From Methanoregulaceae archaeon UXB-2016 (GTDB lineage: Archaea > Halobacteriota > Methanomicrobia > Methanomicrobiales > Methanospirillaceae): a stretch of DNA of 64,000 bases. The stretch lies in the NCBI GenBank assembly GCA_004332335.1, contig SISS01000027.1, positions 1-64,000 of the forward strand, written 5' to 3'. The position numbers and the translations under genes are program-made. The notes beneath the pieces were generated by a model. It saw nothing but the letters and a program-made list of their open reading frames with translations. It did not search any database and was not told the DNA's origin. The first letter of the stretch is position 1. Every line of letters starts with the position of its first letter. This document shows positions 9,132 through 12,642 of this stretch, piece after piece.

Positions 9132-10469
9132 ATGCATGTGGGAATGGACTGGGTCACGGGTGTCCTCGAGGCACTCACTTCGCCCCTGGGCCAGCTCGCG
9201 CTGCTCCTCGTTGCAATCTACGTAGCGGTGGTCGTCTACCTCAAGTGGTCGGGGCGTTTTGCCGACCACGTGATGTTCTACGGCCCGATCCTCGCCCTAC
9301 GGACCACGAAGGTGGGGTTCTTCGACATCTTCCGACGGATCGCATGGCCTCTCAGGCTGTATGCGGGCCTCGGAGTGGTCGCGGTCGCGATCGTCTCGTT
9401 TGTTTTTGCGGTCCTCCTGCTCTTCACGTTCCAGCTGCTCCTTCTGACGCGGCCCGAGCCGACTCAGATCATCGCCCCGCAGAACATCCTGCTGATCCCC
9501 GGCGTGAACGAGTTCGTGCCCGGGACGGTCGCGGTCTGGCTTGCCCTCGTGATCACGCTCGTGGTCCACGAGTTCGGACACGGTATCCTCTCCCGCGTGG
9601 AGGGGATCCGGGTGAAGGCGGCCGGCGTGCTCCTCGCGGTGATCCCCATAGGAGCGTTCGTCGAGCCGGACGAGGAGGAGCTCGAGAAGGCCTCGCGCGG
9701 GGCCAAGATGCGCATGTACGGCGCCGGGATCACGAACAACTTCGTGGTGGGCCTCCTCAGCATCTTTCTCATGATCGCGCTCGTGGGTATGGCCGTGCCC
9801 GTCACGACGCCGATGATCCACGGGATCTACCAGAACTCCCCCGCGTTCAATGCCTCGGTCCCGCAGGACTCGGTCGTGGTCGCGCTCAACGGGACCCCGG
9901 TCGGAGACCGCGAAGAGCTCGGCCGGCTCCTCGCCTCAAGCCGGCCCGGAGACCTGACGTCCCTGACCGTCGAGACGGTGGGCAATCGATCGATGCATAC
10001 CCTCACGCTCGCCCCCTGGCCGGAGAACGCTCATCCCTCCGGGTTCATGGGGATCGAGTACTACGACGGAGCGGCGCTTCAGGCCTACGTGAAGCAGTCG
10101 TTCAATCCGATGGGCCTCCTGCAGTACCTCTTCATGCCGTTCAACCCCTCGTCCGATGCCCGCGCACTCCGGATCCTCGGGTTCCCCGGGGCGTCGGCGT
10201 CGTCCTACCTCGAGGCGCCCTTCACGGGGTTCTGGTCCCTCGTCCATCTGCTCTTCTGGACGGGCTGGATCAACCTGAACGTGGGGATCTTCAACGCGCT
10301 GCCGATGCTGCCGTTCGACGGCGGCTATATCTTCAAGGAAGGGGTCAACGCGGTGCTCTCCCGCATTCGGCTCGAACGGTTGAGCCCCTATATCGTGGGC
10401 GGCCTCTCGTGGCTGATGGCCGTCGCGATGATCTCCCTGATCGTGCTGCCTTACCTGTTCCACCTCTGA
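9132..10469 (+). CDS. site-2 protease family (M50) metalloprotease with PDZ domain
   Basis: VVHEFGHGILSR (HExxH), PDZ-like segment, NVGIFNALPMLPFDGG. Confidence 0.85.
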   Translation: MHVGMDWVTGVLEALTSPLGQLALLLVAIYVAVVVYLKWSGRFADHVMFYGPILALRTTKVGFFDIFRRIAWPLRLYAGLGVVAVAIVSFVFAVLLLFTFQLLLLTRPEPTQIIAPQNILLIPGVNEFVPGTVAVWLALVITLVVHEFGHGILSRVEGIRVKAAGVLLAVIPIGAFVEPDEEELEKASRGAKMRMYGAGITNNFVVGLLSIFLMIALVGMAVPVTTPMIHGIYQNSPAFNASVPQDSVVVALNGTPVGDREELGRLLASSRPGDLTSLTVETVGNRSMHTLTLAPWPENAHPSGFMGIEYYDGAALQAYVKQSFNPMGLLQYLFMPFNPSSDARALRILGFPGASASSYLEAPFTGFWSLVHLLFWTGWINLNVGIFNALPMLPFDGGYIFKEGVNAVLSRIRLERLSPYIVGGLSWLMAVAMISLIVLPYLFHL

Positions 10470-10734
10470 TCGCCTTCCGGCGATCCTCTCCATCGCTGTT
10501 TTCCCTCACTTCCTGCCTCACCGTACCGACCCGGCGAGACCCGGTCCGGCGGCAGAGGCGGCGTCACCGGAGGGACAGTGCGCCCAGAAATGCCCGGCAC
10601 CTGGAGCAGTGGCACGGGACGGCGCCGGAATAAAAAGGACGAATCCCCTGACTGTCCCGAGAAGGATCCTCCATGAGAAGAGAATTGCCGGCGACTGTGT
10701 CGGGTCGAGGGCCCCACCCTCTCGAGGGCGGCAC

Positions 10735-10864
10735 GGCCGTTTCTGCCATTTACAACAGGACACAGCTTGGCGGAAACGGTCGTGTAAACGGAGAAAGAGT
10801 ATAATCCTGGCCGAATGGCGGATCGCGCCGAGTTCCATGGAGACCGGGTCGGCCGTTTCCGCCA
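10735..10864 (+). repeat. inverted unit A: motif copies at 10735-10748 (+), 10768-10781 (-), 10851-10864 (+)
   Basis: GGCCGTTTCTGCCA / TGGCGGAAACGGTC / GGCCGTTTCCGCCA; 130 bp; mirror of unit B. Confidence 0.92.
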
Positions 10865-11016
10865 GACGCGGTTACACAGACCCCCCCTCTCTGCCGAGCC
10901 GGCAATGGGGGAACGCGACAGGAGCCGGCCGTCCTCTCGATGCGATACCGGGGCCGGCACGGGCGGCGATTGGTAACGATCAGAACCGGAGATGTTGCTG
11001 ACCGACGACCCGTGCC

Positions 11017-11303
11017 GGCACGGCAGACGGGGTTTTTCGTTGCGCCCCTGTCGAGCACGGCTCGGCACGCGGCCGACGTGAACGCCTCGAGCGCCGCATC
11101 CGGACGCGAATGCCGGCCTCGAGCATGTCGTAGAGCACCATCATCCGGCCGACCTCCTCGACAATCTCAGATTGGATGAACTTCATCGTTATCGCCGCCT
11201 CAAATGAATCGCCGCGGCCAGCCAACGTTGCGAGGATCTTTGCAGACGCGGCGACGATGGCATTCATAGTCATTTTTCGATCCTGAATCCTGCTCACGCC
11301 CAT
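11017..11303 (-). pseudogene. small uncharacterised gene, apparently frameshifted (approximate extent)
   Basis: MGVSRIQDRKMTMNAIVAASAKILATLAGRGDSFEAAITMKFIQSEIVEEVGRMMVLYDMLEAGI, then after a -1 shift near 11105 RPDAALEAFTSAACRAVLDRGATKNP; the unshifted frame turns into an Arg-rich tail. Confidence 0.45.
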
Positions 11304-11320
11304 CTCTTCATAATCCCATC

Positions 11321-11450
11321 TGGCGGAAACGGCCGATGCGATCTCTGCAGAATGGCCGGCATTTTCCGATCCGGCCCGGCAGATCTCCTTTGCCCGTTTA
11401 CACGGCCGTTTCCGCCACGCTGTCGCCATCTGCAAATGGCGGAAACGGCT
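11321..11450 (-). repeat. inverted unit B: motif copies at 11321-11334 (-), 11404-11417 (+), 11437-11450 (-)
   Basis: TGGCGGAAACGGCC / GGCCGTTTCCGCCA / TGGCGGAAACGGCT; 130 bp with the same 19- and 69-nt spacers as unit A. Confidence 0.92.
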
Positions 11451-11547
11451 GCGTTCGTGCCGGCTCCGACCGTACAACGCCGGGACGCGGTCTTATACAA
11501 AGATCAAAAAAGGAGCTGGTGCCGGCCCGCCTGCTGCCGGGGCCGGC

Positions 11548-12642
11548 TTACTCGAGGGTCTTGGGGCCGGCGGGCTCGTCCGTCTCGACGAGCTCCCCTT
11601 TCTCCTTGCCCTTGATCTCCGGCATATCCGGGACCGACCGCTGAACATCCGCGAGGATCTCGCGTACGTCCTCCAGGCGGGGGATCGCGCCGAGGATCTC
11701 GTCGTCGAGGCGAGATGAATCTCCCTCTTCCATCGGCGGCAGCTGGTCCTCGGCCAGGCCGAGGAACTTCGCCGACTGCCGGATCAGGCTCGAGAACTCG
11801 AACGGGAAGATGATCTTCGTCGCCTGGCCGTTTGCCATGGTCTTCAGGGCGTCGAGCGAGAGGACCGTGATCGCTCGCCGATCGAGCGGTCGGGAGCCGA
11901 GCGCGACGATCCGCAGGCCCTGGGCCTGGCCCTGGGCCTCGAGGATCCGCGACTGCCGCTCGCCCTCGGCCTTCAGGATCTTGGACTGCCGCTCGCCCTC
12001 GGCCTCGAGGATCATCGACTGCCGCAGGCCCTCGGCCCGGAGGATCGCCGACCGCTTCTCACCGTCGGCCCGGAGGATCGCGGCCCGCCGCTCCCGCTCC
12101 GCGGCCGTCTGCTCGGTCATGGCCTGCTTGACCGCGCCGATCGGGTCGACCTCCTTGATCTCGACCCGCTCGACCTTGACCCCCCACTGGTCGGTCTCGC
12201 GGTCGAGCATGTCCCGCAGGCGGGCGTTGATCACGTCCCGGTTGTAGAGGACCTCGTCGAGCTCCATGTCGCCGATCACGCCACGGAGCGTGGTCTGGGC
12301 AAGGGCCACCGTGGCCGTCCTGTAGTTACCGACCTCGAAGAAGGCCTTCTCCGGGTCCATCACGCGGATGAAGACTATCGCGTCGACGTTCGTCGGTGAG
12401 TTGTCCTTGGTGATGACCTCCTGGCTCGGGACGTCGACCACCTGCGTCCGGAGGTCGAGCTTCTCGACCCGGGTGATCAGGGGGACCACCCACCTAAAAC
12501 CGGGGTTGAGCCGGCCGATGTACTTGCCCAGCCGGATCTGGAGGCCCTGCTGGTACGGCTGGACGATCACCACGCCGCGCGCGAAGATGAAGATGATCAC
12601 GAGGATCAGGATGATTGAGATCAGTGTCTCGATTAGTGCCAT
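11548..12642 (-). CDS. SPFH/band-7 (stomatin/paraslipin-like) membrane protein
   Basis: VVIVQPYQQGLQIRLGKYIGRLNPGFRWVVPLI; RAEGLRQSMILEAEGERQSKILKAEGERQ repeats; NfeD partner. Confidence 0.92.
   Translation of the reverse strand: MALIETLISIILILVIIFIFARGVVIVQPYQQGLQIRLGKYIGRLNPGFRWVVPLITRVEKLDLRTQVVDVPSQEVITKDNSPTNVDAIVFIRVMDPEKAFFEVGNYRTATVALAQTTLRGVIGDMELDEVLYNRDVINARLRDMLDRETDQWGVKVERVEIKEVDPIGAVKQAMTEQTAAERERRAAILRADGEKRSAILRAEGLRQSMILEAEGERQSKILKAEGERQSRILEAQGQAQGLRIVALGSRPLDRRAITVLSLDALKTMANGQATKIIFPFEFSSLIRQSAKFLGLAEDQLPPMEEGDSSRLDDEILGAIPRLEDVREILADVQRSVPDMPEIKGKEKGELVETDEPAGPKTLE

Follow-up and report, generated by a model that had tools for sequence, protein, structure and literature searches.

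A module of two mirrored 130-bp units, each carrying three copies of a 14-mer at fixed spacing, was found in the window, which is the whole 64-kb stretch of DNA that was analysed. The module is real, and it is not explained by any named family. The reading that we put first, while holding it to be slightly less than an even bet, is that the two units form the terminal arrays of a mobile element that is small, non-autonomous, and decayed and is recognised through the 14-mer.

Results

Six copies of GGCCGTTTCCGCCA at no more than one mismatch were found in the window, and there was no seventh. The chance expectation at this threshold is 0.03 copies per window, and six were never reached in dinucleotide shuffles. 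The copies fall into two units, A and B, which are inverted relative to each other, with spacers of 19 nt and 69 nt in A as in B.

10735..10864, + strand: unit A, 130 bp, probably non-coding; 14-mers oriented +,-,+; 91/130 identical to reversed B
10735..10748, + strand: A m1, GGCCGTTTCTGCCA, 1 mismatch
10768..10781, - strand: A m2, GACCGTTTCCGCCA, 1 mismatch
10851..10864, + strand: A m3, GGCCGTTTCCGCCA, 0 mismatches
11321..11450, - strand: unit B, mirror copy of A
11321..11334, - strand: B m3, GGCCGTTTCCGCCA, 0 mismatches
11404..11417, + strand: B m2, 0 mismatches, inner arm of the 19-nt pair
11437..11450, - strand: B m1, AGCCGTTTCCGCCA, outermost, 1 mismatch

The sequence-only reading had placed and oriented all six 14-mers correctly to the base. 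It had also called the 19-nt and 69-nt spacers equal in both units, as they are, and its hand count of about 40/69 identities between the longer spacers agrees with our alignment, which gave exactly 40/69.

When A was compared with reversed B, 91 of the 130 positions (about 70%) were identical with no gaps. The motifs agreed at 39/42 positions, the 19-nt spacers at 12/19, and the spacers of both lengths together at 52/88. The higher identity of the motifs gave a Fisher P of about 7e-5, which is somewhat generous since the motif was chosen for being repeated. The identity of the 69-nt spacers was itself far above that of shuffled spacers (mean 18.3; 0 of 20,000 reached the observed value), which indicates that A and B descend from one ancestral unit and have since diverged. 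Therefore, the equal spacing is partly due to common descent. About 36 spacer substitutions have accumulated between A and B, yet there are zero indels within the 130 bp, and a 6-nt gap of A against B lies immediately outside A m1. This absence of indels within the unit may reflect selection on the spacing. The similarity outlasts the 130 bp, reaching left to about 10726, right to about 11465, and inward for about 10 bp. Coding by the units is unlikely, since substitutions between A and B fall on all three codon positions (15/13/11) and the gaps of a third unit, described next, break the frame.

The genome comprises 2.37 Mb in 45 contigs, and statements about it as a whole are based on pattern, BLAST, and model searches. 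It carries mcrA, which identifies the host as a methanogen, along with archaeal eIF2-alpha and primase genes and two Cdc6-type genes. The core 12-mer CCGTTTCCGCCA occurs exactly seven times in it, five times in the module and twice on contig C7, where the two copies are inverted to each other and 19 nt apart (C7:25129-25171). Other genomic matches at one mismatch were at the same level as a control pattern, and a covariance model of the paired part matched three units in the genome and no more. The C7 unit aligned with A and B, with the outer flank, the stem, and parts of the loop in common and weaker similarity further in; the three units are homologous. At the place of the third motif, C7 has only a decayed relative (core CGAAACGG, at about C7 25049-25062), which sits nearer by about 5 nt than its counterparts in A and B. 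The alignment of this unit has one 1-nt and one 7-nt gap. It is a single intergenic unit, between a leftward gene and a tRNA-Gln gene, and the only two-ended copy in the genome is the one in the window. Five integrase matches are scattered over the genome, none of them on the window contig; the C7 unit has its closest integrase gene 4.5 kb away, and no link between the two was established. The earlier proposal that motif and spacing are kept while the spacer sequence drifts is borne out by A and B, and by C7 only in part, where the 19-nt spacing is kept and the third motif is decayed and displaced by 5 nt.

The module lies in a gap of about 1,078 bp (10470-11547) between two convergent genes, both of which point at it, and a gene remnant lies between A and B.

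9132..10469, + strand: left neighbour, M50 site-2 protease-like gene (PF02163, E=7e-28)
10980..11190, - strand: 3' remnant of a type I restriction hsdS gene, frame-shifted, ends judged by eye
11548..12642, - strand: right neighbour, SPFH/Band 7 gene (PF01145, E=1e-39)

Since the module stands between convergent gene ends, it does not serve either neighbour as an upstream promoter. The convergent pair is conserved in all four congeners examined (4/4). By alignment ends, the orthologous gap is at most about 345 bp in G002 and 606 bp in G003; in G004 and G006 it is about 3 kb and holds an HtpX-type protease gene and genes of PspA type, identified by reading the sequence. No sequence in common was found between the window gap and the gaps of these four genomes. 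The M50/SPFH gap differs in every species, which makes it a site of variation within the genus. As a separate observation, 33-bp repeats at 11893-12090 inside the SPFH gene encode ILEAEGERQS-type 11-residue repeats.

The hsdS remnant, so named from a reading of the sequence, was compared to a full-length hsdS-like open reading frame on contig C45. At 11052-11143 the two share 82% DNA identity over 93 nt; they also match at the protein level and have similar C-terminal endings (VGQQHLRF in the remnant, TGQQRLPV in the C45 frame). The sister G003 has a comparable hsdS 3' remnant elsewhere in its genome (L006:1432-1563). Also within the interior, at 10952-11036, the + strand has a terminator-like arrangement in which the two 11-bp arms of an inverted repeat (GCCGGCACGGG / CCCGTGCCGGC) precede GGGGTTTTT.

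Searches outside the host gave no relatives of the units. Within the order (232 genomes), the host alone had the paired motif at up to three mismatches, as it did among about 390 genomes of the phylum at up to two, and the covariance model likewise found no other genome with it. Plasmid, phage, and viral collections held nothing meaningful, and a literature search with the motif string gave unrelated papers only. Several candidates were examined and set aside. RNA-model matches in other genomes (E 0.015-0.05) were at chance level over 232 genomes. Exact-pattern matches in Parabacteroides, Streptosporangiaceae, and Sulfobacillus had only the 10-bp arms in common with the units and were judged unrelated; the two in Parabacteroides fell within arrays of the word TTCCGCCA, one of them in a long open frame, and the one in Streptosporangiaceae had one additional TTTCCGCCA close by. 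A match in a P2-like prophage was a lone hairpin, and a hairpin with a 19-nt loop near an hsdS remnant of G003 was dismissed as lying inside an open frame. The Parabacteroides distasonis arrays are tandem and inverted TTCCGCCA words at L041:4012-4140 and L042:2660-2800; the L042 array is the one within a long open frame, and L041 has a similar stretch. At the C7 locus, a tRNA was not found beside the esterase orthologues of the sisters, and the contig of one sister stops there. Among the species sampled, the units are private to this one. The sequence-only reading had named two outcomes that would speak against it: scatter of the motif over the genome was not seen, and the arrangement was absent from all sister species.

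Discussion

Of the three readings first offered for the module, the one that takes the arrays for the ends of a small mobile element fits best, with the lack of an enzyme and of a target duplication weighing against it. The element would be about 720-740 bp long and probably decayed, with A and B as its imperfect terminal inverted arrays, and the convergent M50/SPFH gap would be its insertion site. A putative recombinase or transposase would bind the 14-mer. At each end, two inverted sites 19 nt apart would form the outer part and a third would follow 69 nt inward, the mirror symmetry would let the protein load on both ends, and the C7 unit would be an isolated end belonging to a second copy. 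Protein binding by the 14-mers, the identity of that protein as a recombinase or transposase, and movement of the element are three steps that we infer.

Several findings favor this element. Mirror-image units, in effect terminal inverted repeats, stand at its two outer edges; the motifs are kept where the spacers are not; A and B align without indels while C7, with its decayed third motif, has gaps; the host genome has three units and the sisters and the rest of the order have none; the sister gaps are either short or of the HtpX-PspA type, with unrelated sequence; and a broken piece of hsdS lies inside. Against it, A and B are only 70% identical, there is one two-ended copy only, and no target-site duplication was seen by eye at 10725-10735 / 11450-11466. 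The interval between the units has no transposase or integrase gene, and no parent element sharing the termini was found in the order, the phylum sample, or the viral, plasmid, and phage collections. A bolder version, in which the arrays are the ends of a new type of archaeal mobile element family mobilised in trans by one of this methanogen's recombinases, strikes us as improbable.

The strongest competing reading is a repeat, private to the species, that binds a protein or forms a hairpin. A species-private intergenic family, either an operator array or a REP-like hairpin, could bind a host regulator or a chromosome-architecture protein, with A and B arising by inverted duplication and C7 as a dispersed copy. 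We regard this as possible and on the unlikely side. It would account for a close pair kept at three places while the spacers drift, for a single C7 unit in the intergenic space next to tRNA-Gln, and for steps of 33 and 83 bp that are near whole helical turns. However, the window site lies between two gene ends and not before a promoter, there are only three units in 2.37 Mb, and all congeners lack them though both neighbors are conserved.

Another possible explanation is a structured non-coding RNA, in which the units are transcribed and an 18-bp stem with a 19-nt loop has a third, strand-exchange partner. A m1 and m2 with 4 bp of flank are predicted to form such a stem and loop, strong hairpins are predicted in 3/3 units, 94% of stem cells pair, and a few loop positions (T.CA, CA.C) are kept in all units. 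Nevertheless, compensatory changes were seen at 0/18 pairs among the three sequences, the breaks being three single-sequence cells, the stem is predicted to be stable on both strands, with about equal folding of the two in 2/3 units, and no Rfam family was above or near its gathering threshold. The lack of compensatory change leans, weakly with three sequences, toward recognition of the DNA sequence over that of an RNA fold, and it was counted in favor of the mobile element. We consider the RNA doubtful.

A phase-variable type I restriction cassette, with the mirrored units as recombination sites that invert the hsdS piece, would explain why an hsdS 3' remnant is flanked by inverted repeats. 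It is very unlikely, because the remnant is short, frame-shifted, and without target-recognition domains, there is no adjoining hsdM, hsdR, or recombinase gene, and the units are probably non-coding and only 70% identical. A replication origin or partition site, with an Orc1/Cdc6-like or Par protein bound to it, is the least probable of all. Short inverted sites arrayed on both sides of a center speak for it, but it is contradicted by canonical ORB-type boxes (CCCCTTTGTTTCCAGTGGA) of a different motif at the cdc6-type gene on contig C5. The window contig gave no Cdc6 matches, the center is not AT-rich, and there is no conservation in sisters. Cdc6-type genes were found on C5 and C12, and the array of CCCCTTTGTTTCCAGTGGA and variants upstream of the former (L048 2790-3270) is likely a replication origin of the host.

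As an element end, the module would offer through its spacing rule a handle for finding the enzyme in methanogens; as a regulator array, it would be a rare one confined to this species. For now, it is a clear case of a motif array whose spacing is kept but which belongs to no known family, of modest scope in one species and of local rather than broad importance.

Compared with known systems, the module resembles archaeal ORBs as an array of short inverted sites, and the letters GTTTCC are common to both, but its motif is different and no cdc6 gene is nearby. RIT (recombinase-in-trio) and related tyrosine-recombinase elements likewise have inverted terminal repeats with palindromic parts (PMC3414803, PMC10214605); the lengths reported for those repeats, 28-34 bp, do not match the module, and no recombinase trio lies beside any unit. 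As in MITE-type elements, the module is short, probably non-coding, and intergenic with inverted termini, whereas its copy number is very low, its termini are only 70% alike, and no parent element was found. The paired-plus-distant layout of 19 and 69 nt matches no family known to us. Mu attL/attR and Tn7 ends carry several transposase-binding sites per end. Unlike them, the module has no transposase, element gene, or target duplication, its sites are of mixed orientation within one end, and there is only one two-ended copy. Like them, it has several copies of a site at each end, with the spacing kept, the ends mirrored, and the sequence between the sites not conserved. With no sequence relative among them, this likeness is best taken as an analogy of layout and not as membership.
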